A stretch of DNA of 64,000 nt from Galdieria sulphuraria (taxonomy: Eukaryota > Rhodophyta > Bangiophyceae > Galdieriales > Galdieriaceae), in assembly GCF_000341285.1 (NCBI RefSeq), contig NW_005178448.1:31612-95611 (forward strand). Direction: 5' to 3'. The position numbers and the translations under genes were made by a program. The notes below the pieces were generated by a model. That model did not search any database, was not told the DNA's origin, and saw only the letters and a program-made list of their open reading frames with translations. Shown piece by piece: positions 20,345 through 63,984 of this stretch. Position 1 is the first letter of the stretch; every line of letters begins with the position of its first letter.

Positions 20345-21831
20345 ATGGATTCCAGCTTGTCGTTTGTCAACAGCTCCATCGTATGGGGAACTAACAGAAA
20401 CTATGTAGGTGGACTTTCAACTAGTGGTAAGTTATAAAGCATCGTAGTAACTGTCAAAGTGAAAGGATACATATTTGACTGTTAGGGTTTCGGGGTAGAC
20501 CAATAGCGTCCAATATCCAGAAGACTGGTAGATCAAGGCTTGTGTTTTATGCTCGAGCAGACAATGGCAAAGATTCCAAAGACTCCAAAGATATCTCATC
20601 GTCAAGAGATAAAGTAGAAAACAAAGCTGAAGAGAAGAAGGACGTTCGTAAACCTGCAGAATCCAGTGCTACCCCTTCTTCCGCACCCACCGCACGAGTA
20701 GAGGCACCAAAAGCACAGACTTCCTCAGCCACTACTAGTCAGCGAAGCAGTGCTTCAACCGAAGGATCTGGTGGCATTAAGATATCTCAAGGAGGAGTAA
20801 AAGATAATACTGCAGTTCCTAAATTTTCCAAGGATTATCTTTCTGCTAACGGTGTGTCCATGTTACCCAAAATCGGCTTTGAAAGAGTGAAGGAGAAGGA
20901 ATATAAGATCATACCTGGGAGAGTCCGAGCTGGACGCTTTCCACCAGATGAGACTAGAAACATTTTGGAAATGGCCTATCAACGAATATTTGGAAATAAC
21001 TATATCTTTGAAGCTGAAAGGGAAGAGCTGAAGACCATTGATTCGGCATTCCAGAATGGAAGGTATCGTGTGAAGGACTACATTCGTGCTCTGAGCAAGT
21101 CAGATGTGTTTAAGAACAAGTTTTTCTATAATCGTCCAGTTTATAACTCTATTGAGTTGTGTTTCCGAATTTTATTGGGAAGACCTTGCGACAGTTATGC
21201 CGAGTTGAAAGGCAAGACCTCTATTTATGACTCTCACGGTTTTGATGCACTTATTGACTCGTTCTTGGATGATGGAGAATATGACGAGGCTTTTGGATAC
21301 GATAATGTACCTTATAATCGTCCATATACTCTTGGTACTCGCAATTCCACTGCCCAGTTTGCTCAGTTATTACGAATGAGTAGTCGTGCAGCTGATGCCG
21401 ATTACAAGTCGAATGAACGCAAGGCATTTACTTCCAGCATTCAAGCTAACCGTTTTGGAATACAAACCGTGCCTCGACTTTTGAATCGTATTACTGCCCG
21501 TCGATCTATGGGAGGAAGACCAGGACCTGTTGGTGCTCCTTGTGCTGGTTTCCGTATGGGTGTGGAAGCTGATAATGATGGTAAAGTCTACCGTCTAGAT
21601 GTGACTGGATTCACTGAGTGGACCACTGGAGCTGCTGGTGCCGCAGGAATAACGTTGCGTTCTCGCTCGGGAAGATTATATCGTAACTCTACCAGTATGT
21701 CCAAGGGAGTCTTGTCTCAATTCCGTCGTTCCAATCAAGCTTATCTGATTCCTAAAGACAAGATGTTGGAGCGTATGATTCAGATCCATCAGAGAGGTGG
21801 CAAGATTGTCTCTGTTGTTCCCACTGCTTAA
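20345..21831 (+). CDS. Phycobilisome rod linker polypeptide, nuclear encoded
   Basis: Two exons (20345-20426, 20486-21831; 59-nt intron) give 475 aa. The first about 50 residues (MDSSLSFVNSS..., basic, no acidic residue after the start region) form a plastid transit peptide ending near FYARA. A Lys/Ser/Ala-rich stretch of about 100 residues follows. The pfam00427-type linker domain comes next (IIPGRVRAGRFPPDETRN, AYQRIFGNNYIFEAER, DYIRALSKSDVFKNKFF). The end is a CpcD-like cap (AYLIPKDKMLERMIQI then RGGKIVSVVP). A linker domain plus CpcD cap is the layout of CpcC-type rod linkers that stack phycocyanin hexamers. The gene is strong evidence for a red alga. Confidence 0.92.
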
Positions 21832-35081: not shown

Positions 35082-35253
35082 AACTTTATATCAATAGAAG
35101 TCTGCTTATACGAAAATAGATAGACAAAAGGAAAATGTTTGGAAAAGGCAATCTTAAATTTTGGCGCCCTGTGAGAATTTTTAAAATTTGAATTGGGTGA
35201 CCACAACAGGATTCCGTGGACCTACAGCTTTCATCGTGTGTTCATGTTAACCG

Positions 35254-37489
35254 ATGGAACCTGTCAAAACAAGGGAAGATAGAGGTGCTGAGAGTATAAT
35301 CCATGTGAAAACGGAATGTAAGGAAAACTGTACAATGAATTCAATACCAAAGTCTGAGAAGAGAGAACTACATAAAGCTGCGCGTGCTGCACCTCGAAAG
35401 CCATTCATTCAACCATTTAGGAACGAACCGTTAAGGAATATGGGAGTATTGTCTAGTTTACAACCTACAGGAGCGCCAGGTTCTTATGCTCCTATAGATA
35501 GACTCAACCAAAAAAAGCGAAGTCCTTCTTATGAAAAGGGAGTCAAGACAGAGTTGAAGGGACAGGGAGAACACTCAGGTTCTCCTGACAACCAGAAGAA
35601 TAGTCCTGAAGTTTTTGCAACCAAAGTTGTTCAAGAGAGCTCATCCTCTTCTAGCTGTACAAAGGTAGCAAAAGATTCGAGTCCATACGGAAACCGTACG
35701 AAGAGTTACAACATTCAAGATTTATCGAAGAAGAAAGAAAAGGAGACAAGATATGAAACAAATAACCAATCTAACAGTCCAAATGGAACATATAGTTTAA
35801 ACCAAAGCCCTGAAAAAGCAACTACGATATCAGACTCAAGAGTAACGTCAAACAATAGCTCTTCGTGCTCTAATAGGACATCTCCACAAACCTCTAGTGG
35901 AGAATGTCGCGAACAGAACGCCACACAAAGAAACAACGATGTGCCGTACGTAACTCAAATTTTCCAAAAGGCTTTAATAGTGGCACATGAAGCCGCAACT
36001 AACGACGAAAGCGGTGACTATGAACAAGCGTACAACCTTTACATTCAGGTTATTGAGTTATTCATGCAGGTAACAATTTTATTAGTTTCATTGGGGGCAT
36101 CTTCTTATTATCATAGGCTATTCCTTTTCTGGACTCTTCAGAAGCAAATCTTTGTATGAAACAGGTCAATGATTTTTTATCGAGATGTGAAGCTCTTCGA
36201 GAATCTCTTTACGAGGCCAGCATTTGTGGCGATTTCACCTCACTTTCCATATTAAATGAACACGATTCTAGCGCCATTCTATGGTGGAATGGACCCGATG
36301 GAGTTGCTGGCCAACGAGACCACCTCAATCCACAATGGCATTATTCGAATTACACTAAACAAGGGTCACATTCGAATTCTCCTGCGTCTGGTGAAGCTGG
36401 CAACAATTCTTTCAACAAGACTCGTTTACTCACCCCCAATGAATTGGACCAGATGAAACAAGAGATTGAAATGTGGAAAGCAAGATACGCAGAGATGACA
36501 TTAGCTGTTGATAGTTCCGGAAATCCTGAAAAGTCCAGGGCTCTCATTCTCTCCAAACGAATTGAGAATCTACATGCTGGCACGTTTGGAGAATTCAAAA
36601 AACTTGAACCTCTAGATCCTAAGGCATTAGACATGTGGAACAGGGAGTTGCATGTATTATACGATACGTTGGAAAACATTGTCGTCCAACAACCTGCACA
36701 GAAGGTCCTTGAGGACGGGACTACAATTCAAATCATGGTGAAGGCGAAACGACCCGATATTGCTAACTATCTACCTCGACTTCAAGAGCTGGATAAACTT
36801 TTACAAGACTTTTTCTCTTCTCTAGAATGTCTTAGAGGAATTATAACATATGAAAGTTGTTCAAAACCTTCTCAAAAAACAGAACAATGGTGGGTCTGCG
36901 AACCTCTACTTCCCAGCTCGGGTCTCTCTCCTGAAATTGTATGGTTTCTGACCGATTTAGAAGGAAAAAGTAGAAATATTTGGCTAGAATGTCGTCAAAT
37001 TAACGAAGCAATTATAGCAAAGATGAATATGCCGACTCTTTTGTTTCTAGCTTGCCAAAGAAAGCCAAGGAAGTACTAGGTGAAGAACTCGAAGTGAATA
37101 TGAGCAATCCCTACTTCAATATAGAAAAGTTTATGAAAGAAAAAAAGAAATGGAATGAATCCAACGCGCAACAAACAGTAACAAAGTTGGAGAAAGCTGT
37201 TTGCATATGGAAATTGAAGATGGATGAAGGAATGAAAGCCAAATGGACTCTGAGAAGGGATCGTATTCAAAAATATTCTGTTCTTTTAAGAAGGGCAGAT
37301 GCTGCTATTCGAGTTTTGAAACAGCGTTTCCCATATATGCTTCAAACAGAACTTGAGCAATCAAAAATATTTCACAATACAGAGATTGGCAAGGCAGGTC
37401 TTGAAGTCTATTCTCGAGTGCTTGAGAGTCGTGCGGGAATATTGGCTGATAGGATTTCTTATCTGTTGAAAAAAACGAGTCATAAATAA
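35254..37489 (+). CDS. MIT-domain plus PRONE-domain RopGEF-like protein
   Basis: Exon 1 is 35254-36069. After a 47-nt intron, exon 2 runs to 37489. Residues 1-225 are low-complexity and Ser/Asn-rich. Residues about 230-310 form a MIT domain (FQKALIVAHEAATNDESGDY, YNLYIQVIELFMQ, VNDFLSRCEALRESL). From about residue 370 a PRONE domain follows: GTFGEFKKLEPLDPKALDMW, IQIMVKAKRPDIANYLPRL, QWWVCEPLLPSSGLS, INEAIIAKMNMP, SLPKKAKEVLG, LEKAVCIWKLKM and LEVYSRVLESRAGILADRI. PRONE proteins are nucleotide-exchange factors for Rop/Rac GTPases. The frame changes at about 37047: the first frame stops at 37079 while conserved PRONE residues continue in another frame. A single missing base is the simplest reading. 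MIT domains bind ESCRT-III tails. Confidence 0.78.
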
Positions 37490-37923: not shown

Positions 37924-39807
37924 ATGAGCGACTTATTTAACGATAGAAGAGTTACATGGGAGGATCCTGACGGTGAGGTAGATGTTGTGGTGGAAGAAGG
38001 CTCCTTGGCACGTGAAGAGGAAAGCGACTCTTTTCGACAAGACGAAGAGAACTATGACGTGGAAAACTCGTCGAAAACATGTTTTCCTGTGTGGGAAGCG
38101 AAATGGTCGCGAAAGGCAAAAGTCGAACGAGTGTTGAGACTGCGACCGGAAACGGAGCCTCATACGAGGTAAGTCTGAGCGTATTTTTTTGTTGGGTTCG
38201 AGTCTCAACGCATTGCAAGTGAGCCTTGGTTTTCAAGAAGTAGAATGCGTTTGCTTGCAGACTCCCCAGCGGTGTATTTAATAGATTCCATTCTCATTAT
38301 TATCAACTTGCTTATTTTTCTGTCAAAATATATTGTCATGTTCCGGACAGCTTGGTAAGAAAAACTGCTTTGTGAGGTTGATTAATTCTTAACGGTTTGA
38401 AAGGACACTAGACGCAAGCAGCAGATATGCTTATATAGTTACCACGTGGCTGCAGACTGGAGCCAACTTATTGGTGTGGACAATATTTAGTATTGAAACG
38501 TTGTTACGAATATATACCTGGGGCAGAGTGCAATTTTTTAAACAAAGATTGAATATTGTAGACTTTACAATTGTTAGTTTTCTGGGTATCACTTGTATCA
38601 TTGAGTTGGTATGTTGGAGATTGTTGAGTTGTATCCTTGTTGAAGTAACGGAATATTCAGGTTCTTTTTGCCCCTGTAACACGATCTTCGTTAGATGTGA
38701 ATGTTGAATGGGACGTTCAGTTGGTTCAACTTTTTCATGTTATATTTTCTACTTTGCGTTTTGTGGTTGTGATACGCCTAGGCACAGCCGAAAACTGTAA
38801 GTCATAGTTACAAGCTAATAATTGTCTGTTTGACGATGGACTATGTTGTAGTGAGAAGAAAAGCTTATCGCACTGCTCAAGAAATGAAAGAAACACAAGT
38901 GGCAAGAGGACTTGAAACGTCATGGTTAGTGAAAGAGAACGAAGTGCAGTTTGGAGAGCAAATTGGGATTGGAGCAGTTGGAGTGGTTTATTTGGGTCTT
39001 TGGCAAGGAACTCTTGTAGCAGTTAAACAAGTATTGTGTCCTCATTTGGATTTAGATTCTCGTAAGACTTTGGAACATGAAGTCCGAATCAACTCTTTGT
39101 TGAGACATCCAAACATTGTTTTATTTATGGGAGTTATATTCCATAGCGACCAAAGTATATCTCTACTATCTGAATATTGTGAAAAAGGCAGTTTACAGCG
39201 TCTTATTTATGATAAGCAATTCGACCTCAACTACACTTTTATTATGAAATTTTCGGTGGATGCAGCTCAAGGATTAGCTTACTTACACTCTAGAAGTCCA
39301 CCTATTCTACACAGGGACTTGAAAAGTGCGAATCTTTTGGTAGATTCCAGTTGGAACTTGAAGATTGCTGATTTTGGAATGAGTGCAGTTCTTTCGAATA
39401 TTCATCAAGATGGAGCATTAGGAACGATACAATATACGGCACCTGAAGTATTGAGAAATGAACGGCCTTCACAAGCTTCCGATATATATAGTTTAGGGAT
39501 GGTTCTTTGGGAAATGGGTGCTCGAGAGTTACCTTTCAAAGGAAAGAATAGATATGAGTTGTTTATTGGCAAAGCTGAACATGGAGTGAAACCTGATATT
39601 CACAAATGTGAGTTGCGAACCAGTTGTAAATATATTTCATTAGTCAATCGCTGTCTGTCTTTTGAACCAGGAAAGAGGCCTTCAGCTGTGAACTTGATAG
39701 AGTTGCTTCATCGATTGATTGATGAGGACAGTGATATTTCTGCTGCCTTATTAAGTTTGGGGGAAAAAGACTTGAATACGGACTCTATTTTGTTTAATGG
39801 TGTATGA
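37924..39807 (+). CDS. Voltage-sensor domain fused to a TKL (RAF-like) protein kinase
   Basis: Five exons (37924-38168, about 38244-38354, 38404-38608, 38661-38796, 38852-39807) keep one frame for 550 aa. Residues 1-82 are an acidic cytosolic part. Residues about 88-228 form four helices. S1 has Asp96 (AVYLIDSILIIINLL). S2 has Phe147-x-x-Glu150 (FSIETLLRIY). S3 has Asp172 (NIVDFTIVS). S4 has Arg220 and Arg226 (LRFVVVIRLG), aligning with the first and third Arg of RLWRVAR in Hv1. A basic helical linker leads to a kinase domain with GIGAVGVVY (271-279), Lys291, Glu309, HRDLKSAN (Asp388), DFG (406-408) and APEVL, all catalytic residues present. The joining intron (38797-38851, gtaagt...ttgtag) preserves phase. 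Unspliced, the first part would stop right after S4. Confidence 0.75.
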
Positions 39808-45131: not shown

Positions 45132-46768
45132 GTATAAACCCTTCAACTTTCCAAAGTCTTCAAATCTTGCCAATAAAAAAAAGAGATGATAAAATTTTCA
45201 TTTTTCTTATCATCGATGGAAATCTCTTGTCGAACACTTTTGTAGATACACAAACTCCTTACGATAAGGAGGATTGAGCCTCAAACAAGAACTTATTGAA
45301 ATTTTTGACTGTAAGAGTAAAAGTGGTGATGCTTTTGCTTCTCCTTGCACTTATATTTCAAGATTGATCTTACTTTTTTCTTTGCAAATAGAAGTGAAAG
45401 ATTCTTGCTTTTCCATTATTTCTAAATATATATTCTTTTTACAAAAGTAGACAAAATTGATCAACATATTTAAAAGAATAAGACCTTTACCGATTTGGAT
45501 AGTAACAACCACAATACCATTTGAGATGAGATTGATTGACTCGGCAAAAGAATTAAACAAACTATTTTATTTTATTCTGCTGAAAATATTGCAAAGTTGG
45601 CGACAATTTTATTTCTTATAGAACAACTTGGATAAAAGCGTTTCTCTTATTTTTCAAGTATGACTTGTTCCTAGTAGAATGAACACTTCTTGTATTGTTT
45701 ATACAAAATACTGAGTTGTCTTTGATTCTTGTGACAAGTATCCAAAGGAACCTTCCACCATATACCCATCAGGTTATATTTCGCAAGAGTCTTCTTCCAA
45801 GTGTCTATTAAGAAGAACTTTTGTATATTGTCTGCTCAAAATATCGTTTGTTCAAACAATAGATTTGCATGGTGTTACAACAGATTCTTCCTTCTATTTC
45901 GATATTGACAATCCTTCACTAAGATTGCCGAATCATATTAGGAATTCGAAAATTTTTATCAAAGTAGTTTAGTATTTCCTTTGTTCTTTTAAGAAAATTA
46001 AAGCCGCATAGATAATTTAGCTTATTATATTTTCAGAAATGCCGCTATGGACCTTCAAGTTATTATGATGGAATGTAGGACCAGATACTTATGTTTTGCC
46101 TTTAGTTGCATTTTCGTATGATCTTCTATGATATATGTATGGGCAAGCTTTGGTTTTTGTACATTCCGTTCTTGGATTGATTTGAAAACCGTACTATTAT
46201 TCCTTGTTTTCCTTTGCACTCTCCTGTCGATCTTTCTCATTTCTTGAAACTTCTGAAATCATAATGTAAACCTGTTCAGATGCTGTAAAAAGTCAATATC
46301 AACTGCTTAAAGACCAACTCAGTGCGAGGAAAACAGAAAATTCTGTTGGTTACTCTACGACTTAAGTTGCTCTTGGTGAAAATATGATTAGAACAATCTT
46401 CGGTTCAAATGACTAGAGAAAGTTGTTGTGACAATTCCATTCACAAACAAAGTATGTAGATAATTTAGAATTTTTTCAGTTTCTAGTGCATTATGTGATG
46501 ATAAGATATGTAATTGTATTGAAAGTTGGTTGAAGGGACCTCGCTATAAAGATTAACTTGAGGTTGCTCGACATAATTACATTGGAAGTTTTGATTCTTT
46601 GGCTATGTTTTTCTCAAGTATAATTAAAGATGCTCTTAGTTTACTGTCTAGTAAAAACACTGCCAAGTATCGTCGTTTCTCCAAAATGTTTGAAGCTTTT
46701 CATCCAATTTTCTTCATCACTTTTGCATTCCTATTTTTTATGGAGTATTTGTCGTTGAAACTTTCTCT
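45132..46768. other. A/T-rich intergenic stretch
   Basis: About 1.6 kb with short open frames only. A plus-strand frame from about 46603 to 46790 overlaps the start of the next gene in another frame and shows a hydrophobic segment, but no gene can be supported. Confidence 0.45.
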
Positions 46769-49273
46769 ATGGAATCAATTTACTATTTAAAAGAACCACA
46801 AGTTGACAGAGAGGAAGACGTAAGGGCTATCATTGAAACTTTTCGTTCCCAGTTCTCGAAGAAGATGTACGGTGGTCCTTTGTTCAATCGACCGGCTTGT
46901 TGTTTTGCCCCGCAAATATTTGGAGCAGGGAAAACTTTTCTAGGCCGAAATTTTTTGTCTTATTTGAATATTTTTACTGAGCATGAGTGTTCAAGTGTAC
47001 AGACTTTTCAACAGCCACGCAGTTCATATGAGAAACCCCAGTTGAGTGCTCCGAAGGTTCCTTGGAAACACTTTGCGGAACACACATTGTCAGTTGTCTT
47101 AGAACTAGGAGAGAATTTTTCTCGTGCTCCTTTTGCAAGTTTTCGAAAGGCTTTAAGGTATAACATAGCTCTGGCTACAGCCGAGTGCAACGGTATGACT
47201 GCCCGAGAAACTGTAGAATTCACGGACGCAGCGATGAAGCAACCTAGTGTTTTTTTATTTCTCCAGTATCTTCTCGAACAATTTCAGAAACAATATTTAT
47301 TTTTGATGATAGACGAACTTAGCCACCTGAGTTACATCACCAAATACTATAGTGAACTTACCATGAAACAGTTCGTCGAGCCCAATCCAAGTTATATCCC
47401 GTATCGCAAATTTTTTCGAACTGTAGATGAGTTGCTTAATACAGGAAAAGTTATCCTATATATTGCTGGGCGAACCGACGAAATCTCAGCCCGCCTGTCT
47501 GATGCTCGCTCCAGTAAAGTCACCCTCCATATGTTGCGGTTGAATCCCTTTAAACTAAATGATATTAACGAATATATTGAGCTGGAAACTTATAATGGAA
47601 AGTCCTTGAAGGACTGGTTATTGCCCTCAAATGATTTACGATATCAATTCGTAGAATTGTTGAAAAAGAAGACAGGAGGTATTCCGTTAATTGTAAAGAA
47701 TACTTTACTAGCCCTAGTAGAGAAACTTGCAAACTTATCTCAACCTGCTATCAACGATGACAATATGGAACTTTTATTAGATAGTGTCTTTGAAGATATA
47801 CTAAATGAGTCAGGAACCTTTATTATTCCGGAGATACTAGATTCCGCAACCCTTCTTCGATATCAATTTGTCCTTTTGAATTATCAACTCGGAACAGTTT
47901 TTCCAATTGACTTTGTAATTACTATATGTGGAACGAGAACTTATTTGATGGACTTGGTTGCAACTTTTGGGTTTTACCGTGAAAGTTGTGGAATTGACGG
48001 GATTGATTTGGGCACCGAATTCAAGATTGGTTGTTGTGAATTTATATTGAGAGCTCATAGCAACTATAAATTTTTCCGTGAGGCTACTGAACTCTTTCCT
48101 TTATCTCCGTTTAGTTATATTTCCGACACTTCAACAGCAAAGGGAGTCTTCTTTGAATTTGTATTTATGAAGATCTTTCGCTTTCGCTTATTAACTTTTC
48201 TTCATTCTAACTCCTCGCCTATTGTACATTCTGCTATTCCAGGAATTTTCCAGGGTTCTTTTATTGAACAGGACAATGTTTCTTATTCTATGGAATCAAC
48301 AAAATCTAATGATATACCCATCTTGAGAAATGTCTCTGATTCATTTTCTGATCATTATAGAAAATATTTACAACGTTGTGGTATTTTTGTTCCAAAAGAT
48401 GGCAATTCTAGTGGCGCTGATGCATATGTTGTATTCCATAATGGACAAACACGTTATGTTGTTGGATTTTCATTTAAATTTTATCACAAAACTGAATTTT
48501 CGAAGAGAGATATTGAGAAGGAAGCAGAACAATTTTTCCAAGAAGTTATTTCCGTTTTGAATGACGAATCTCTTTCATCTGTTCAACTTTGTTTTCAGTT
48601 TGTGGTAGTATATACTAGTTATGGTCAATCTGTATTTTTCTCTGTTGAAGAACATAATATTGTTGAAGATGCAAGTTATTTGGCCACTGAACATTCTTCA
48701 GGGTCAACTTTGAATGAAAGTAGTCGATCATGTCTGCAATTGACAGTTGTTTCCCAAAGGAATTTTGAACGATTCTTGGGAATAGATAATGTCGAAATGT
48801 TGAGGAAAGTTGGGGAAGCAAACCGAGGAGAGTTCTGTAAATATTTTTCAGTATGGTGTAAAACTATCTTTGAGTCGATGTCCAGTGCATATGTTTCATC
48901 TTTGGAAGCTGAGCAATCAAATGTTACTTTAAGAGTATCTCGAAATATAAGACAGAGAACAAGCATGGAGAATAGGATGCAAATGGAAGAGCTTCAAAGT
49001 GCTATGCAAGTGGAAGAAGGAGATACACGAGGCGAACAAAAGGTTGCAGCATCGAGTTCTTTGTCTTCGTCATTTGATTGGAATACTTTCCTAAGAGAAC
49101 GTTGTGGTCTTTATGAAGAGGACGTTGCTTATTGTCTTCCGAAAGTCGAAGATATCGATACGGACGAGCTTCCAGCGGTGACCGAAGAAATTTTAAGGGA
49201 CTTGGGTATAGATAAACCTGCGTTGAGGTCGAAGATAAGATCTTCTATAAGGTCATATCTTGCTAGCGAATGA
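46769..49273 (+). CDS. P-loop NTPase with nuclease-like and SAM-like parts (Crinkler/RHS-like)
   Basis: An intronless 834-aa frame. The P-loop QIFGAGKTFLGR (residues 49-60) and Walker B YLFLMIDELSHL (about 176-187) are followed by an arginine-bearing IAGRTDEISARL and a long helical part. This is the layout of NTPases seen in Crinkler/RHS-type proteins and related STAND-like ATPases. In the middle, GADAYVVF ... VVGFSFKFYHK (about 550-575) resembles a PD-(D/E)xK nuclease core, with Asp and Lys in place; this is tentative. The C-terminal about 60 residues (WNTFLRERCGLYEEDV ... ILRDLGIDKPALRSKI) look like a SAM domain. The gene stands alone between two gene-free stretches. Confidence 0.6.
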   Translation: MESIYYLKEPQVDREEDVRAIIETFRSQFSKKMYGGPLFNRPACCFAPQIFGAGKTFLGRNFLSYLNIFTEHECSSVQTFQQPRSSYEKPQLSAPKVPWKHFAEHTLSVVLELGENFSRAPFASFRKALRYNIALATAECNGMTARETVEFTDAAMKQPSVFLFLQYLLEQFQKQYLFLMIDELSHLSYITKYYSELTMKQFVEPNPSYIPYRKFFRTVDELLNTGKVILYIAGRTDEISARLSDARSSKVTLHMLRLNPFKLNDINEYIELETYNGKSLKDWLLPSNDLRYQFVELLKKKTGGIPLIVKNTLLALVEKLANLSQPAINDDNMELLLDSVFEDILNESGTFIIPEILDSATLLRYQFVLLNYQLGTVFPIDFVITICGTRTYLMDLVATFGFYRESCGIDGIDLGTEFKIGCCEFILRAHSNYKFFREATELFPLSPFSYISDTSTAKGVFFEFVFMKIFRFRLLTFLHSNSSPIVHSAIPGIFQGSFIEQDNVSYSMESTKSNDIPILRNVSDSFSDHYRKYLQRCGIFVPKDGNSSGADAYVVFHNGQTRYVVGFSFKFYHKTEFSKRDIEKEAEQFFQEVISVLNDESLSSVQLCFQFVVVYTSYGQSVFFSVEEHNIVEDASYLATEHSSGSTLNESSRSCLQLTVVSQRNFERFLGIDNVEMLRKVGEANRGEFCKYFSVWCKTIFESMSSAYVSSLEAEQSNVTLRVSRNIRQRTSMENRMQMEELQSAMQVEEGDTRGEQKVAASSSLSSSFDWNTFLRERCGLYEEDVAYCLPKVEDIDTDELPAVTEEILRDLGIDKPALRSKIRSSIRSYLASE

Positions 49274-51141: not shown

Positions 51142-54100
51142 ATGAATAAAGACGAAAGTATTCGAAAAAACGGGTCAAGTGTGAAAAGCAACATTCAACA
51201 GGAAGCGCTTGGACCTGTCGAAACGAATGACTCAACAGCAGATATGGAACAGGATAGAGGTACATCTATGAGGAATGTAGACAACGGTTTTCCATCTGGT
51301 CATATTGAAGAATCTCTGTCTTCAGTTGCCCCAAGGCCAAGGGGTTATCATAGTACACAGTTCCTTACACAAGAAGAAACTATTTCTGAGTCAGAATCGA
51401 AACCAATTTCTTATAAACAGGCTTGTGTGGAACTTTCAAAGCAGGGTTCAACGAATGAGGTTTCCATTCAGTGGGGTTCAAAGCAAAATAGTCGTAAAAC
51501 ACTGGTCTACCAAGCAGTCCCAGCATTTTCACCTCGAAACCCGAAAGTGGATGCCTTGGAGAAGACGATAGACGATAGACTTTTGACAGCTACTCGACTT
51601 GTAGCGACAGTCCCGTGTAAAACAAGGATGTTCGATGAACTTCTCAAGCAAAGTCCTGTCACTGCAGCGGACTTTGAATTCAGAAATGAAAACGTCTTTC
51701 TAAAGGTGCTGGAACAGATAGAAAGTTCTGAGAAGCACTATTTTGCAGAAAATTCTATGGTTATGAGATTAGATCTTTTTCAGGTCTCGCAACTTGAGAG
51801 CAAAATGGCACAGGAGGCGTGGTATGGAGCGTTCACCAAGTTTAAACAAATTGCCATCGTCACTTCAGTATCAGATATCGTGAATGCATGTCACTGGCTC
51901 CAAGTTTGCCATTCTGGCAAAAAGTGTTTATCTCCAACACTCTTTTTATGGGCACAGTATAAAGGAAATTGTCAAGTTTTAAACGCCTTGTTTCGAGAAT
52001 TCGACCCGATATACTTATATGTAAACCTTCATATACTGAAGGAAAAAGGAGTAGACTCTTTATTCTACCAAAAGCTGAATGACTGCAAACATCTACATTG
52101 TTTGGTGGTGAATGATATGACAATTTCTTTAAGAGAACTTGACAACATTCTAAAGTGTTCGTCCTCAGTCTTTGTGGGCTACCTTTCAAGTAAAATGATC
52201 TCCAAAGAATTGGAAAAGGTTAAAGTGAGTTTGCAGAACAATATGAAAGAGGTACATTTGATTACGTCAGAGTTATGCTATCATTTGCAGCAGACTCCTA
52301 ATAATGACTTTAAAGAATATTGGAGTTTTTCTAAAGACTTTGGAACAAGACTTTGTTTCTATCCTGACAAAGTAAAGCTAGAATTTGCATGTAAGGCTTT
52401 ACAAGCAAACTCTACATTAGAAATTCTAGATATTGATAGCTGCAATATGAATTCTGATGACGCAAAAAAGTTATCAGAGGCGTTGAAGAGAAATTCTACC
52501 CTGGATAATCTATGCATAGGTATTAACAAGATCAATTCTGAAGGAGCAAGATATATAGCAGACGTATTGAAAATGAATTCCACACTCACAAAATTATCTA
52601 TTTATGGTAATAATATTGGTTCTGAAGGAGCGAGATATTTATCTGAAGCATTGAAAGTAAACTCTACATTAAAAATGCTCTGTATGGGTCGCAATAATAT
52701 AGGTTCGGAAGGAACAAAGTATATTTCAAATGCTTTGATGCACAACTCTACCCTGACCGAATTATGTATCTATGGTAACAACATAGATTCCCAAGGAGCC
52801 AAATATTTATCTGAAGCCTTGAAGGTGAACTCAGGTTTGAAAACATTTCGTCTTGGTCGCAATTCAATTGGTTCTGAAGGCGCAATGGTTCTGTCCAAGG
52901 CACTGGAAAGAAATTCCACATTGACAGAGTTATATATTTATGCCAATAAGATTGGCCCTGAAGGAGCGAAGCATTTGTTTGGAGCAATGGAAAGACATTC
53001 CAAGCTGACAACATTGTGTATCGGTATTAATAATATTGGCCCAGATGGAGCTAAAGCCTTATCGGAAGCTTTACAAAGAAACTCCTCGTTAGAAACATTA
53101 CAACTTTATGCAAATGAAATCGGCTCTCAAGGAATGAAATATCTGTCAGAAGCATTGGAAATCAACTCAGCACTGACGACATTCCTCATTGGCTGTAATG
53201 ATATTGGCAATGAAGGGGCAGGACATCTTTCTGAGGCATTAAAAACAAATTCTACGCTGAAGGTATTGTATATTTATGGCAATAATATAGATGCAACTGG
53301 AGCAAGATACTTGTCAGACATGTTGCGAAGAAATTTATCACTGATAAAAATGCATATATATGGAAATTCTATCGGTTCAGAAGGATTCAATGCTCTGGTG
53401 GAAGGACTCAAAGAAAATTATACCATGAAAGAACTTTACATTAATATCAAAGACGATAGCATTGGTTCAAGAGAAACGTCCTTGATAAGGGAGTTATTGC
53501 ATCGAAATAATTGTCTTAGTGATGAAGTCGATTCACCGATTTCTTTCACGCAGGAAGAAGAGCAAATGATTATGGAAAGACGCAAAAAATTGGATCTGCC
53601 AACACAACAAGATCACGACGCTGCCTGTAAAGCTGCCTTTTTGTTGATATCTTATCTTCAGCATCGACGCAAATTATGTCTAATTGACAGTAATGAACCG
53701 AATAATGCATCACCGTCTGATTCTTTATTAAAGCCATTATTTCTGATGGATCCCACCGATTTACCGAATGTGCGAGCTCAAGAAGAATGTTTCTTGTCAG
53801 AAACACATTCCTATCGTTGCGGCATTTGCTCCTTTGTTTGTCTCTATCCTTGCTGCTCGGACAACTGTTCGCATATTTTTTGCAAAGTTTGCATAACGAG
53901 AAGGCTCGATGAAAATAAAAGCTGTCCTCTTTGTGAAACTCCATGTGAGTCTTGGAGACAGGTTCCGGTTATTGATAGTATGATTCGTCATTTAATTGTT
54001 GATTGTCCCTTAAAATGCGGTTGGCAAGGGCTGCTTTCTGTTTACGATAATTGTCATCAAATGGAATGCATTCATCAAAAGGGAAGGTGCAATTTGTGTG

Positions 54101-54372
54101 GTTTGGAAATGGAACTTGGACAGTTTACGAACATACATTTGGTTGAAAGTGATTGCCGTATACCATGTCGTTACTGCAACCAAGTTATCGGTGCACCACT
54201 CATGGAAGTGCACGAACACTATGAATGTCTACTGGCTCCCTTTCAATGCTCTCTTTGTCAAAAAATATTGACATGGAAGGATAGTTTAAATCATTCGAAT
54301 ACATGCTGTGGCTCCATTCCAGCTTTTATGGTACATGTTGAGGGTGATCTGGTTTCCGATACTTGTGTTTAA
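51142..54372 (+). CDS. LRR protein with RING and TRAF-type zinc fingers (putative E3 ligase)
   Basis: An intronless 1076-aa frame. Residues 1-120 are polar. Residues about 120-410 form an unrecognised alpha/beta part. About 13 RNI-like leucine-rich repeats of 28 residues follow (about 411-780; consensus LSEALKxNSTLxxLxIxxNxIGSEGA). Repeats 2-11 alternate between an IGxNxI form and an IYGNxI form. A RING finger (CGICSFVCLYPCC ... HIFCKVC ... CPLCETPC, about 893-935) and three Cys/His clusters of TRAF type follow (CPLKCGWQG, CNLCGLEMEL, CRYCNQVIG, CSLCQKIL). The layout suggests ubiquitin ligation directed by the LRR part. The target is unknown. Confidence 0.78.
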   Translation: MNKDESIRKNGSSVKSNIQQEALGPVETNDSTADMEQDRGTSMRNVDNGFPSGHIEESLSSVAPRPRGYHSTQFLTQEETISESESKPISYKQACVELSKQGSTNEVSIQWGSKQNSRKTLVYQAVPAFSPRNPKVDALEKTIDDRLLTATRLVATVPCKTRMFDELLKQSPVTAADFEFRNENVFLKVLEQIESSEKHYFAENSMVMRLDLFQVSQLESKMAQEAWYGAFTKFKQIAIVTSVSDIVNACHWLQVCHSGKKCLSPTLFLWAQYKGNCQVLNALFREFDPIYLYVNLHILKEKGVDSLFYQKLNDCKHLHCLVVNDMTISLRELDNILKCSSSVFVGYLSSKMISKELEKVKVSLQNNMKEVHLITSELCYHLQQTPNNDFKEYWSFSKDFGTRLCFYPDKVKLEFACKALQANSTLEILDIDSCNMNSDDAKKLSEALKRNSTLDNLCIGINKINSEGARYIADVLKMNSTLTKLSIYGNNIGSEGARYLSEALKVNSTLKMLCMGRNNIGSEGTKYISNALMHNSTLTELCIYGNNIDSQGAKYLSEALKVNSGLKTFRLGRNSIGSEGAMVLSKALERNSTLTELYIYANKIGPEGAKHLFGAMERHSKLTTLCIGINNIGPDGAKALSEALQRNSSLETLQLYANEIGSQGMKYLSEALEINSALTTFLIGCNDIGNEGAGHLSEALKTNSTLKVLYIYGNNIDATGARYLSDMLRRNLSLIKMHIYGNSIGSEGFNALVEGLKENYTMKELYINIKDDSIGSRETSLIRELLHRNNCLSDEVDSPISFTQEEEQMIMERRKKLDLPTQQDHDAACKAAFLLISYLQHRRKLCLIDSNEPNNASPSDSLLKPLFLMDPTDLPNVRAQEECFLSETHSYRCGICSFVCLYPCCSDNCSHIFCKVCITRRLDENKSCPLCETPCESWRQVPVIDSMIRHLIVDCPLKCGWQGLLSVYDNCHQMECIHQKGRCNLCGLEMELGQFTNIHLVESDCRIPCRYCNQVIGAPLMEVHEHYECLLAPFQCSLCQKILTWKDSLNHSNTCCGSIPAFMVHVEGDLVSDTCV

Positions 54373-56308
54373 ATTGTTGGTTAATGTCAAAGTATTAGAA
54401 ACAATTCGTTGTGGATTTGAAAAACTCAATAATTCAAGTAAATCATTTGTTCAATTGCGAGATAATGGATACAAAAGCTGAAAGAATTATTGTTGGAACC
54501 AATCATCCTTGAACAAATATACTGAGAAGATAAACTGGAGACAACTAGGATTATCTACTTGGTATTTGACATGACTGAGGTAAATATTTGTAACTAGCCT
54601 TGTTCAAAGTACTTTGGAAGCAAAAAACAACTTCAGACGTCATATCAACAAAAACTTTGTATTAAATCTATAAGTGAAAAATCTACCCGAGAATCTACAG
54701 ACACTTGACAGGTTGATAGTCTTTGTTGACAAATGTTTTTAATTCCAGCAATTGAGCTTCTCTCATTGCGCCTAAGCTTTTTGATGACTACCGTGTTATG
54801 GTAGATGCTGTTCCTGATTGAAAGCTTGAATAATTGGTCCACTTGAAAATACGACGAGATAAAAGAATAACAATCAGTGATTCAGGTGGCCGTTTCAACT
54901 CCTTGCAAAGGTGGCTGCTTGACGGAGTCTTTGTCACAGCTGTTTGTGTGGCATCGACTTGAAGCAAGAGAAGATCACAAAGTGCCTTCAAAGTGAGGAA
55001 GTCTATTAAGGCAATAAAAACCTCAATAATAGGATAACAACGTCTCTTGTGTAAACAAAGAAAACGCAAGTATTCAAAAGTAGACTGAATCCTCCTATGG
55101 ACACTGTGTTTCAACGTGGCAAACGCAAAAGAATAAACCAGCAGTATTTATTGCCGTGTTTCTAAACGCAGAATTTCAGTTGCTAAGCTCTGGCTACTTT
55201 AGGTTCAATGTTGAAAACCATTTTGAGAAAGTTTGAGTACTATTCTATGTAATGTGTTGGTATTATAGTGGGTTCTCTGCATTGATCATCTTCCATTCAC
55301 ACATTGCCCTTCGATTGTCCTATGATATAGCAAAACGCTATGTTATGCTCTTAAATTTATTCTTTAAAAGGCATTCTATTCAAAAGTGTTCCGTTCGTTC
55401 ATATTTGAAGCAAGAAATCCATACAAAAAGAGAACAACTTCCTATTTGCAACTCTCTCGATAATGGACTTACTCCATTCTCACTATTAAGTGTGTCATTT
55501 CTTGGCATATATCGAATCAACTGATTGTGACTATTTATCCTAATAGTTGTTTCTTCCCAATAGTATGGCAATATACGACATGGCAATGTCATTTTTTTAC
55601 ATGAATATACATGCGTAAATATTAATATTCAAACAATAATATTCTCTTCCTACTGCTTGTGTACAAGCTTCTGTTCACTATAGTTGATATTTATCCCACA
55701 AAGTTCTTCAAGAATACTACTATGGCAATCTGGGCTTAAATATCAACTTGGAAACAGAAAACCATTCAACTCACCTCCTTAAGCTCGTTACATTTGACTA
55801 TTTCAGTTTTATTTCTCACACAGTAAACTCTTCAAAAAAGGGGGACTATTATCAAAGGTGCAAAAGTTATACTCTCAATTATACATATATGGATTACACA
55901 CTTAAAAAAGGGAGGTATTGGAAAGCTAGCTAGTGAGATAAGATAGCACTGAAGTCTAGCATATTTCTACTCGTCCGGAGTTGAAAGGAGTGTGCAAGGT
56001 AAAAACTTTGTCCAACAACGTCAATCCCATTTTGCAAGATTGCAGCTGAGTGATCTCAATTCGGTTGCAAATGGAAAAACAGCGTGGATCGCATTATCCA
56101 AGTTGATCAAAAAGCGATTTGTTTTGTAATGGGAATCTTGAACTGCCTTTTTCAAATATTCTTCTATAGCTGTTTCTATATTTGGAAAAACCAATCGTCA
56201 CATGTAGAAATGGAATAATATTCTGAATCGACAAATCTCAAGCTTTATATAAGCTCCTGAAACAACAAAATTTTGTTTTATCTTTTTATTCTTAACTTTT
56301 AAGATAAT
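54373..56308. other. A/T-rich intergenic stretch
   Basis: About 1.9 kb. The minus-strand frame at 54788-55114 (STFEYLRFL and LKALCDLLLLQVDA) is protein-like and may be an exon or a gene remnant, but no start or partner exon is clear. The rest shows nothing. Confidence 0.4.
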
Positions 56309-57385
56309 ATGAAGAGGTATTTATGTTATTTGCTGGTAACTCTACTTGTGGCAACTGTTCTCACTCGCTCTGCAAACGCGGATACTGGGACTTTTTCTTC
56401 TTCATTTTCTTCTGGTAATGGTGAAGCTTCAGGCTCTTCGGAAGCAACCAGTGGTGCTCAATCTTCAAGTTCCGACTCTCAAGCAAACTCAAAGGGACTC
56501 GGTTCAGCTCTGTCTATTGACTCCAGTTCTACCTCTTCACAAGGTAGCTCAAGTCTTTCTATCTCATCTTCTGAAGGTACTGCTACTGCAAAGGGAATAA
56601 CAGCTGGAGCCAATGAAAAAAGTAGCACAGCAGCAGGTTCGAAAGCAACTTCTACTAAAAATGGAGCTGCTTTCGGTGCAGCTGGATCAAATAGCTTCGA
56701 TTCCACAATAGATGGTATCAACTTTCAGGGATCTCAATCAACTAGTTCATCAGCTTCCTTTGGACATGGAGCAGCTGCTTCTGCAGCTCAAGGTGAAACT
56801 CCTAATACTAGTGCAAAAAGTGCATCCGCAACAGAAGGAAATGCATTAGCACAGGACACTTCCAACAGCAACTCAGGACCAAGTGGAGTATCAAGTAGCA
56901 GCCAAGCCAACACAATCGCTTTTCCAAATGGTGAAGCTGCAGCTTCAGGAGAAGCTAAAGCATCTGAGAACTTGAATTGCATGTGGCAGTATAAGCAACG
57001 ATGTCTTCCATGTGCTTCAGTTGATAACGGTATGTGCAAATGTTACTGGAAAGTTTTCGATAGTTGTGTCTGTCAAAGCCTCACTTGTGCCAAACCATTC
57101 TTCAAAGCAAGTGTGGATTCTGAGGTGCTCTCTTTGTCGGCTAATGGAGGTTTTTCTCAAGCGTCCGCAAATGCAGCTTCTACTGTTTTAGGAGGAAAAG
57201 ACAGTGCTTCTGTTCTTGGCTCAACTTTTAGTTCAGGCTCAACTTCTGCCTTCAGTGGCGCAAAAGGCAAACAGAACCAGGCAAAAGGCAGTGCGGAAAG
57301 TTTCGGATCTTCCTCTAGCGGCGGAAAATTTGGAAGCTACTCTGAAAATTACTTTCGTTCCGATATTCAGGTATTAGCAGCCTAA
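56309..57385 (+). CDS. Secreted Ser/Ala/Gly-rich protein with an eight-cysteine island
   Basis: A 358-aa intronless frame. A signal peptide (MKRYLCYLLVTLLVATVLTR) probably ends near SANA. Most of the protein is Ser/Ala/Gly-rich and low in complexity. A compact Cys module lies at about residues 224-255 with spacing C-x7-C-x2-C-x7-C-x-C-x7-C-x-C-x4-C (CMWQYKQRCLPC ... CKCYWKVFDSCVC). Low-complexity secreted proteins of this kind often coat walls or form extracellular matrix. No family is recognised and no membrane anchor is seen. Confidence 0.75.
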   Translation: MKRYLCYLLVTLLVATVLTRSANADTGTFSSSFSSGNGEASGSSEATSGAQSSSSDSQANSKGLGSALSIDSSSTSSQGSSSLSISSSEGTATAKGITAGANEKSSTAAGSKATSTKNGAAFGAAGSNSFDSTIDGINFQGSQSTSSSASFGHGAAASAAQGETPNTSAKSASATEGNALAQDTSNSNSGPSGVSSSSQANTIAFPNGEAAASGEAKASENLNCMWQYKQRCLPCASVDNGMCKCYWKVFDSCVCQSLTCAKPFFKASVDSEVLSLSANGGFSQASANAASTVLGGKDSASVLGSTFSSGSTSAFSGAKGKQNQAKGSAESFGSSSSGGKFGSYSENYFRSDIQVLAA

Positions 57386-61325: not shown

Positions 61326-61725
61326 CTTGCTTGCTTATGTCTCGGGATCCACTACCATTGATTATACTCACCAAGCCGACGTTTGCTTATGTAAGCTTGA
61401 AGGTGCATTAGAGCCTATCATCCAACTGATTGATTCTTGCACCGAATCTTCTTGTGACAGTATGTGTAGTTCCTTTGCTGACAGCATCAATTTCAATTCT
61501 ACTTGCCTTTATAGTCAGACAAATGTTGATGATACCATTGACGAGGACCTCGAGATTATAAGAAGTCAAATCAGTGGAATTTATGACGCTTTCAAAGCAT
61601 TATTCGGAGGCAAAGGTACTTATATTTATAAGGCTCTGGAGGCAGATCTGGAAAAACGTGAGGATGATTCAGATTTTAAATATCTCAAGCCGACACCGAC
61701 ACCGACAACGGCACCAAAGAAGTGA
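61282..61725 (+). CDS. Secreted six-cysteine protein, paralogue of 60273-60716
   Basis: A 147-aa frame starting at 61282. The signal peptide (FIQLILIFSLLAYVSG) is followed by DVCLCKLEGAL, LIDSCTESSCDSMCSSF, one more Cys and the shared helix ISGIYDAFKALFG with GTYIYKALEADLE. The end is acidic and then Thr/Pro-rich. Equal length and matching Cys pattern show that it duplicated with the divergent neighbour. Function is unknown. Confidence 0.72.
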   Translation: MSPKGVFIQLILIFSLLAYVSGSTTIDYTHQADVCLCKLEGALEPIIQLIDSCTESSCDSMCSSFADSINFNSTCLYSQTNVDDTIDEDLEIIRSQISGIYDAFKALFGGKGTYIYKALEADLEKREDDSDFKYLKPTPTPTTAPKK

Positions 61726-62074
61726 AAGTCGTTATATCCATAGTTATATTTTTAGTGTTGTGTTTTTTGCCTTGTTTAGGCAGCCTTTGAGTTTTCTAAA
61801 GTTAAATTCGTTTCTTTCTTTGAATGCAATCCATATACGTTACATTTCGATTCTATCTTCACAAAACACTTGAAAATCAATTACACTGTCAACTGATAAA
61901 TATGTATTGTATCAAAAGTAATGAAAGGTGGATGAACATCTCTTGAAAGCAACTCCTTATTTTATTATCTCGATAAGAAAATGATCGAAAAGTTTAGGAG
62001 CAATTCAAGCAACTAGTGATTTCCATTGACTGTTTTGTTCTATCCTAGAAGCAAAGAGTTGGTTTCTGTGAGAT

Positions 62075-62835: not shown

Positions 62836-63984
62836 CTACACAATAATACGCATAACTACTAAAACAATAACCACTACAATCCCTGCAACTGCAACGCTTC
62901 CCAACACAACGCCAGCAATTGCAGTAGGGCTAGTTGAACTGGAAGACACGGCTTTGTTGGATGGATCACTGGAACTGGTTGCCGTTGCAAGTTGACTTCG
63001 CAATGATGACATATTTCTTTTCAAATCCTTATATTCCCTATTCAATGTAGAAATATTCGTCTCTATTATGTCGATACTTGTCGTGTAGTTAAGAGAGGAC
63101 ATGGTTCCATTCAATTGTTCCAAATCGTAAATAACTTGTTGTATCTCTTCCTTCGTATGGTTACTGTCCTTGCTGAGGTTCTTTCCAAGACTCATCATTT
63201 CATTGTACAATTTCGTAAAGTTATTGCTCATGTCCATTTCTATGTTGGACAACATAGTTTGAGTCGAGTTCAAGCTGGAATTGGTGGTACTCTCAAACAT
63301 GGAAACATAGTTGGCAAGAATAGTCAGATTGGTAGCCATTCCATCTATTTCGTTGGTTTGATTCAAACTCTCCAACATTTGCATAATGCTTTGAATCTGG
63401 GTATTCATAGTGGCCAGTTGTTGGGACACATTGTAACGTTCACCACAATCTCCTTGACAACATTCTGGCTGATAATAATAATAATAATAAGGATTATACC
63501 ATGAAGAATAATAATAATAATTGTAGTAGTCAGAAGGGTAGTAGCCGTAATAATCAGAAGGATAATAATAATCTTGCACATTCTCTTTCACATTCACATC
63601 TGCAACGGAACTTATATTCACTTTCACGTTGGGTAGATTGGACGACACTTGGATATTCTCTTGTATTTGTTCGCTCACTTGAGACTGTACCGTCGTATTA
63701 CTTGAAGGTTGTGGTTGCGGGCAATACGGATAGATATAGAATGGATATGCATACTTGTAATATTGTTCAAGTGCATCTAACACACTAGCAAAAGTTGATT
63801 GACAGTTTTCTTGTGTACAATTCATGCAGGTAGTCATATTATCTATATTACCCAGAAGATAAGGCTGTTGTCCATAATAGCCGCCGACATATATATAACA
63901 GGAACAGTTGTGTTGTGTTGCAGAGACCACTGAACAAGCCAACAGAGTAATGAGCAAGCTATAGATGGTTAAATAGTTGTTCAT
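62836..63984 (-). CDS. Tyr-rich, heavily N-glycosylated surface protein with C-terminal anchor
   Basis: A 382-aa intronless frame. A signal peptide (IYSLLITLLACSVVSA) is followed by a Cys module (NCSCYIYV ... CMNCTQENC) whose CxC start and later C-x2-C-x4-C recall the six-cysteine paralogues next door. A Tyr-rich block (YYGYYPSDYYNYYYY and more) leads to CCQGDCGERYN. A long helical region carries most of about 16 N-x-S/T sites, then a Ser/Thr stretch and a single transmembrane helix (AIAGVVLGSVAVAGIVVV). It looks like a type I cell-surface glycoprotein. Function is unknown; Tyr-rich proteins can cross-link in walls. Confidence 0.75.
   Translation of the reverse strand: MNNYLTIYSLLITLLACSVVSATQHNCSCYIYVGGYYGQQPYLLGNIDNMTTCMNCTQENCQSTFASVLDALEQYYKYAYPFYIYPYCPQPQPSSNTTVQSQVSEQIQENIQVSSNLPNVKVNISSVADVNVKENVQDYYYPSDYYGYYPSDYYNYYYYSSWYNPYYYYYYQPECCQGDCGERYNVSQQLATMNTQIQSIMQMLESLNQTNEIDGMATNLTILANYVSMFESTTNSSLNSTQTMLSNIEMDMSNNFTKLYNEMMSLGKNLSKDSNHTKEEIQQVIYDLEQLNGTMSSLNYTTSIDIIETNISTLNREYKDLKRNMSSLRSQLATATSSSDPSNKAVSSSSTSPTAIAGVVLGSVAVAGIVVVIVLVVMRIIV

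Follow-up and report, generated by a model that had tools for sequence, protein, structure and literature searches.

Introduction

The voltage-sensing phosphatases (VSPs), represented here by Ci-VSP and TPTE2, combine a pore-less S1-S4 domain containing a charge-transfer centre with a linker placed straight after S4 and a C-terminal cytosolic enzyme, a PTEN-like phosphatase. According to the accessible text of one report, S4 movement reaches the enzyme of these proteins through the post-S4 linker (PMC11289409). In the accessible parts of the sources, the proteins that carry a voltage sensor are channels, a Na+/H+ exchanger, phosphatases or cyclases. The voltage-sensor/cyclase fusions of ciliates, Plasmodium and oomycetes also unite a voltage-sensor domain with a signalling enzyme, which is a nucleotide cyclase and not a kinase; those of ciliates and Plasmodium are described, in the same partial sources, with a K+ channel pore. 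An S1-S4 domain and a protein kinase do occur in a single chain in TRPM6 and TRPM7, but these have six helices with a pore, an atypical alpha-kinase and a large N-terminal region (PMC12799467, accessible part). TMEM266, as portrayed in the available portion of its description, is a pore-less S1-S4 protein that has the F/E/D charge-transfer triad and is not a proton channel. It resembles the algal protein described below in these respects and in lacking a charged residue at a core position of S1 where a charged or polar one is usual, but differs in keeping the RxxRxxR motif, in its disordered C-terminus and in having no enzyme.

Here we analyse a window of algal DNA (the whole stretch of 64,000 nucleotides, G+C content 38%) in which one gene appears to encode, in this order, an acidic N-terminus, a voltage-sensor-like S1-S4 domain, a linker of about 35 residues and a TKL-type kinase with its catalytic residues. 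This is the domain order of the VSPs, with a TKL-type kinase where these have the phosphatase, and with two S4 arginines compared with the four of TPTE2, the protein giving the best pairwise score among the three tested (TPTE2, Ci-VSP and Hv1). Pore helices S5-S6 and an alpha-kinase, as in TRPM6/TRPM7, are missing: an ordinary kinase domain lies within about 35 residues of S4. The kinases CTR1, Raf and MLK share the kinase domain, and we know of none with a transmembrane sensor in the same chain.

The sequence-only reading of this DNA knew of no described sensor-kinase protein. We likewise found none in the literature searched, which lay mostly outside subscription journals; there may be unpublished cases, or cases known only from annotation. 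The word kinase is absent from the accessible part of a 2024 review of voltage sensors, and from that of the text of a 2023 review whose figure legend refers to all reported VSD proteins. Relatives of the S1-S4/kinase protein were not found in viral, bacterial and archaeal contig collections.

Gene structure

The open frame runs on the forward strand from the ATG at 37924 to a stop codon ending at 39807, and is divided into five exons by four GT-AG introns (Table 1) that we infer to be spliced out in the cell. The exons had been described as lying in one phase; five exons and an unbroken frame are indeed present, but the phases at the exon ends are 2, 2, 0 and 1. Intron 1 offers three in-frame acceptors, with ends at 38219, 38237 or 38243 (intron lengths 51, 69 or 75 nt), so that exon 2 starts at 38220, 38238 or 38244 and the protein has 558, 552 or 550 amino acids. 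The choice alters at most eight residues, all before S1. We provisionally prefer the 51-nt form because its length is closest to those of the other introns of the gene (49, 52 and 55 nt). In the 552-aa version the introns measure 69, 49, 52 and 55 nt, 51 nt being possible for the first. This version, or parts common to all versions, was used for the Pfam, PDB, Smith-Waterman, MAFFT and contig searches, and the 558-aa version for the S1-S4 profile and shuffle scores, the loop charges and the third-residue register. The exon 1 region is acidic, with 23 Asp/Glu and 12 Lys/Arg in residues 1-86 of the 558-aa version.

Table 1. Features of the candidate S1-S4/kinase gene (positions in the window)
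Feature	Position	Strand	Description
Exon 1	37924..38168	+	Acidic N-terminal region, predicted cytosolic; begins at the first ATG of the frame
Intron 1, preferred form	38169..38219	+	51 nt, GTAAGT..GCAAG; alternative in-frame ends 38237 or 38243
Exon 2	38220..38354	+	Pre-S1 region and S1 (about 38266-38343)
Exon 3	38404..38608	+	S1-S2 loop, S2 (Phe 38486, Glu 38495, Arg 38507), S2-S3 loop, S3 (Asp 38561)
Exon 4	38661..38796	+	S3-S4 loop and S4 (about 38715-38780)
Intron 4, linking	38797..38851	+	55 nt, GTAAGT..TTGTAG; would join sensor and kinase in frame; read-through meets TAG at 38805
Exon 5	38852..39807	+	Remaining linker (RRKAYRTAQEMKE...) and TKL-type kinase (Pfam match about 38944-39705); stop codon at end

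Kinase domain

The identity of the kinase is certain from its Pfam matches (Pkinase, 5.5e-51; PK_Tyr_Ser-Thr, 4.5e-44), the first of which answers the kinase half of the profile search proposed earlier for this locus. Every catalytic residue had been claimed to be in place, and the G-loop, the VAVK lysine, the alpha-C glutamate, HRD, DFG and APE are all found. The best PDB matches are to CTR1 (5.8e-48, spanning query residues 12-270, and 2.9e-47), followed by an EGFR chain (5.5e-36). The best 60 of the 577 PDB sequences reaching 1e-20 comprise CTR1, MLT/MAP3K20, B-Raf, MAP3K9, MAP3K7 and one EGFR chain. From these closest matches, and not from a tree, the kinase can be called TKL-type (CTR1/Raf/MLK-like), the TKL group labels of the matched kinases being those that we take them to have. 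Structure prediction of exon 5 from the single sequence gave a model too poor for use (mean pLDDT 29).

Sensing residues of the S1-S4 domain

In a MAFFT alignment the S2 motif F-x-x-E-x-x-x-R and the S3 aspartate fall on the charge-transfer centre of TPTE2, Ci-VSP and Hv1, in agreement with the F-x-x-E in S2 and the Asp in S3 recognized previously; the centre itself is represented by F155, E158 and D180 (558-aa numbering). S4 (STLRFVVVIRLGTAENLRRK) contains two arginines, at 38757-38759 and 38775-38777 (i, i+6), with a valine between them in the third-residue register, which reads S225, R228, V231, R234, T237, N240 and R243 in the 558-aa version. The two arginines had been named Arg220 and Arg226; both exist, and this numbering is valid for the 550-aa version, becoming Arg228 and Arg234 in the 558-aa one. 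S4 therefore has R-xx-V-xx-R and no RxxRxxR, the motif that the TMEM266 paper, in its accessible part, describes as shared by the S4 segments of every voltage-sensing domain.

Compared with TPTE2, S4 keeps arginines 2 and 3 of four, with Ser and Thr at 1 and 4; compared with Ci-VSP, which has four arginines of its own in those columns, it keeps the second and fourth; and compared with Hv1 it keeps the second of three, its other S4 arginine facing an Hv1 asparagine. These comparisons are specific to the MAFFT alignment, as the S4 segments do not coincide in the pairwise local (Smith-Waterman) alignments: the algal S4 falls on the post-S4 linker of TPTE2 and Ci-VSP, and the Hv1 alignment ends before S4.

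The Pfam profile Ion_trans (PF00520) gave no match to the algal protein at E-values up to 10, in searches where the HMMER filters drop most weak matches, so the ion-transport half of the proposed profile search came back empty. TPTE2, Ci-VSP and Hv1, our yardsticks, do match this profile (5e-15, 3e-15 and 4e-10). Hydropathy peaks above 1.2 lie on S1, S3 and S4 and none on S2; two more lie within the kinase. The Lys/Arg to Asp/Glu counts are 10/5 before S1, 4/0 between S2 and S3 and 6/4 after S4, compared with 2/1 between S1 and S2 and 1/3 between S3 and S4. These loop charges fit a predicted arrangement of four helices with both ends cytosolic, in which S2 would be a helix without a hydropathy peak. 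Of the "four-helix voltage sensor" that had been proposed, the S1-S4 similarity to the superfamily stands above shuffled controls (see below), but neither an Ion_trans match nor RxxRxxR is present. Voltage sensing by this domain is plausible but unproven on such evidence, and the case for it is weakened by the reduced charge motif of S4.

Possible coupling of the S1-S4 domain to the kinase

The explanation that we consider probable, though well short of assured, is that a single gene specifies a pore-less S1-S4 domain, a short linker and a cytosolic TKL-type kinase, and that a rearrangement of S4 alters where the kinase lies, whether it dimerises or how active it is. S4 would be rearranged either by the membrane potential or by some other input to the S1-S4 bundle, such as a ligand or a lipid; the rearrangement would be passed on through the linker directly after S4, and the kinase would respond to it through this linker much as the phosphatase does in VSPs. 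Such a route is suggested by analogy, because the order of the parts is that of the VSPs and the linker has about 35 residues.

The alternative to be taken most seriously, although we think it somewhat unlikely, is one membrane-anchored kinase in which the S1-S4 domain has lost voltage sensing and serves as an anchor, a dimeriser or a ligand-binding bundle in the manner of TRP S1-S4 domains. With a ligand as the driver of the coupling, the two explanations would overlap. The presence of only two S4 arginines, six residues apart, and the unmatched Ion_trans profile are what a domain that has lost voltage sensing might display. TRP S1-S4 domains bind modulators (PMC12799467, accessible part), and one to nine transmembrane helices are predicted on TKL kinases of P. 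infestans in the available portion of the paper cited for them. Such a loss is opposed by the conserved F, E and D of the charge-transfer centre and by the position of both S4 arginines in one third-residue register.

Within the coupling explanation a bolder proposal can be put forward only tentatively, and we regard it as rather doubtful: that this is the first natural voltage-regulated protein kinase, in which a Raf/CTR1-like kinase is under the direct control of a pore-less sensor that has two gating arginines, so that one molecule converts potential into phosphorylation. The missing S4 arginines may in that case allow a gating-pore current, a kind of current that VSDs without S4 charges usually show according to the abstract of the 2023 review. 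A sensor on a protein kinase would, if true, link phosphorylation directly to membrane potential, could be tested in an alga and would be usable as a tool. Even a voltage-insensitive S1-S4/kinase chain would be an example of voltage-sensor folds reused as receptors.

One gene or two

The sensor and the kinase could also belong to two adjacent genes, namely one for a sensor-only protein ending at the TAG at 38805-38807, where the S4 frame stops if unspliced, and one for a separate kinase starting at the next in-frame ATG, at 38836. Both reading frames permit this arrangement, which places an in-frame ATG inside the putative intron. We consider it improbable, since only 28 nt, as counted on the sequence, would separate stop from start (a gap of 37 bp, given earlier, has to be corrected) and since the first protein would end, right after S4 as had been pointed out, nine residues past the second S4 arginine. 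Exon 5 opens with RRKAYR, which continues the Lys/Arg-rich stretch following S4, again in disagreement with two genes.

The consensus GTAAGT donor of the linking intron and the preservation of the frame, both noticed in the sequence-only reading, are readily seen in the DNA. GTAAGT is not over-represented in the window (29 seen, 31.2 expected), a point in favour of two genes, and a consensus donor alone therefore has little weight. A GTAAGT-YAG intron of 45-60 nt that keeps the frame at such a stop is found in 2 of 61 neighbouring ORF pairs of the window, counted on both strands, with real and spurious ORFs mixed, as an ORF of at least 40 codons ending at most 60 nt from the opening of an ORF of at least 100 codons. 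The two are the sensor/kinase pair and a pair at 20427 leading into a phycobilisome-linker ORF. Introns supported by protein families in other genes of the window have comparable lengths, 48 nt in a melibiase gene (flanked by profile positions 184 and 186) and 46 nt in a P5C reductase gene. Branch-point-like motifs were not used as evidence because their enrichment test failed across the window (YNRACG, 7 seen and 3.9 expected, with a maximum of 9 in 60 resamplings; YNRAC, 21 seen and 27.1 expected). Taking into account the 28-nt gap and the frame-keeping intron, we reject two separate genes; a single gene for sensor and kinase is much the likelier reading of the DNA.

Retention of the linking intron (38797-38851) would yield a sensor-only product ending right after S4; the intron also contains an in-frame ATG for the kinase.

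Comparison with the Hv1 proton channel

At first reading a proton gradient had been proposed, beside membrane potential, as a possible switch of the kinase, attractive in an alga presumed to live at very low pH. A proton role of the Hv1 kind is not borne out. One could imagine a kinase attached to a proton channel of the Hv1 type, as residues 1-266 match the Hv1 chimera 3wkv in the PDB (E-value 0.074, absent from the 19 matches of the S1-S4 core) and as Hv channels are present in many red algae, according to the accessible section of the review cited. Membership of the Hv1 type fails because an asparagine (38305-38307) occupies the Hv1 Asp112 column, as read from both alignments covering S1 (the Hv1 pairwise alignment and MAFFT), and because RxWRxxR is absent from S4, which has RFVVVIR. 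The Asp in S1 listed earlier is real, at 38284-38286, but lies seven residues before that asparagine and outside the selectivity-Asp column. The Pfam profile VGPC1_C gave no match either. We therefore reject the proton channel, to which we assign a very low probability; judged by these residues, a VSP-like sensor is the better reading.

Relationship of the S1-S4 domain to the voltage-sensor superfamily

A single-sequence search of the PDB with residues 1-266, up to an E-value of 10, gave 43 matches (best E-value 0.0025), comprising 12 voltage-gated Ca channel chains, one TPTE2, 29 chains labelled 'Ion transport protein', which we take to be bacterial Na channels, and one labelled 'Ion channel' (3wkv). 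The S1-S4 core gave 19 (best E-value 0.01): 14 voltage-gated Ca channel chains, TPTE2 and four 'Ion transport protein' chains. The protein reached Smith-Waterman scores of 86 with TPTE2, 58 with Ci-VSP and 67 with Hv1, compared with 47, 36 and 37 for the reversed targets. The TPTE2 score was reached by none of 1000 shuffles in each of three kinds (shuffle means 35-40), the Ci-VSP and Hv1 scores by 4 and 3 of 1000 block shuffles (blocks of ten residues).

A profile built from three sequences (TPTE2, Ci-VSP and Hv1) gave 25.1 bits with the S1-S4 part, a score reached by none of 5000 block shuffles (maximum 15.4), and 20.7 bits with the whole 552-aa protein (maximum 9.5 in 1000 shuffles). Most of the similarity sits in S2-S3 (23.3 bits), to which S1 (4.5 bits) and S4 (2.2 bits) add little. 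With leave-one-out profiles the candidate reaches 10-23 bits, compared with 38-80 for the known members. By these scores the S1-S4 domain is a member of the superfamily that is remoter from TPTE2, Ci-VSP and Hv1 than these are from each other.

That this similarity is a chance resemblance among hydrophobic helices might be argued from the weak single-sequence E-values, from S1 and S4 hardly scoring alone and from the few block shuffles that equal the Ci-VSP and Hv1 scores, but we reject it on the shuffle tests as most improbable, the profile score having no equal among the shuffles, the reversed targets scoring lower and all 43 PDB matches being Ca channels, TPTE2, 'Ion transport protein' or 'Ion channel' chains.

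One further ORF of the window, at 61562-61870, scored 11.9 bits with the same profile; it was taken as a chance match, a single Arg-rich stretch being aligned and no Pfam match being found.

Genomic surroundings

The phycobilisome rod linker ORF mentioned above lies at 20479-21831. In the PDB it is matched best by multi-repeat linkers such as CpcN (3.8e-126), but its near-full-length matches are LR1 linkers (residues 9-332 on 46-370; 8-332 on 45-362), presumably of red algae. This linker, with introns of the spliceosomal type around it, makes a red alga the likely host. Introns are abundant in Galdieria-type algae but not in Cyanidiales, according to the accessible part of PMC9812998.

In the gene just upstream (35251-37489, forward strand) an MIT domain (1.1e-07) is apparently combined with a PRONE Rop-GEF domain, the latter matched on two ORFs (4.6e-32 and 1.3e-26, profile positions 2-203 and 200-355) and labelled plant-specific by Pfam. 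Plant PRONE proteins act with receptor-like kinases, and the position of an MIT-PRONE gene beside a TKL-type kinase is noteworthy for this reason.

Several other ORFs of the window deserve mention. A low-complexity Tyr/Asn/Ser-rich ORF on the reverse strand (62836-63984), with a C-terminal hydrophobic stretch, and a low-complexity Ser/Ala/Gly-rich ORF on the forward strand (56303-57385) both look like secreted or surface proteins and have no Pfam match at 0.001. An ORF of 859 aa at 46694-49273 (forward strand), also without a Pfam match at 0.001, recalls by eye the archaeal-type ATPases reported from Galdieriales (PMC9812998, accessible part). Finally, a single forward-strand ORF of 1076 aa at 51142-54372 contains many leucine-rich repeats (LRR_6, 6.6e-27), and its Cys/His-rich C-terminus, unreported by Pfam at 0.001, looks RING- or TRAF-like by eye.
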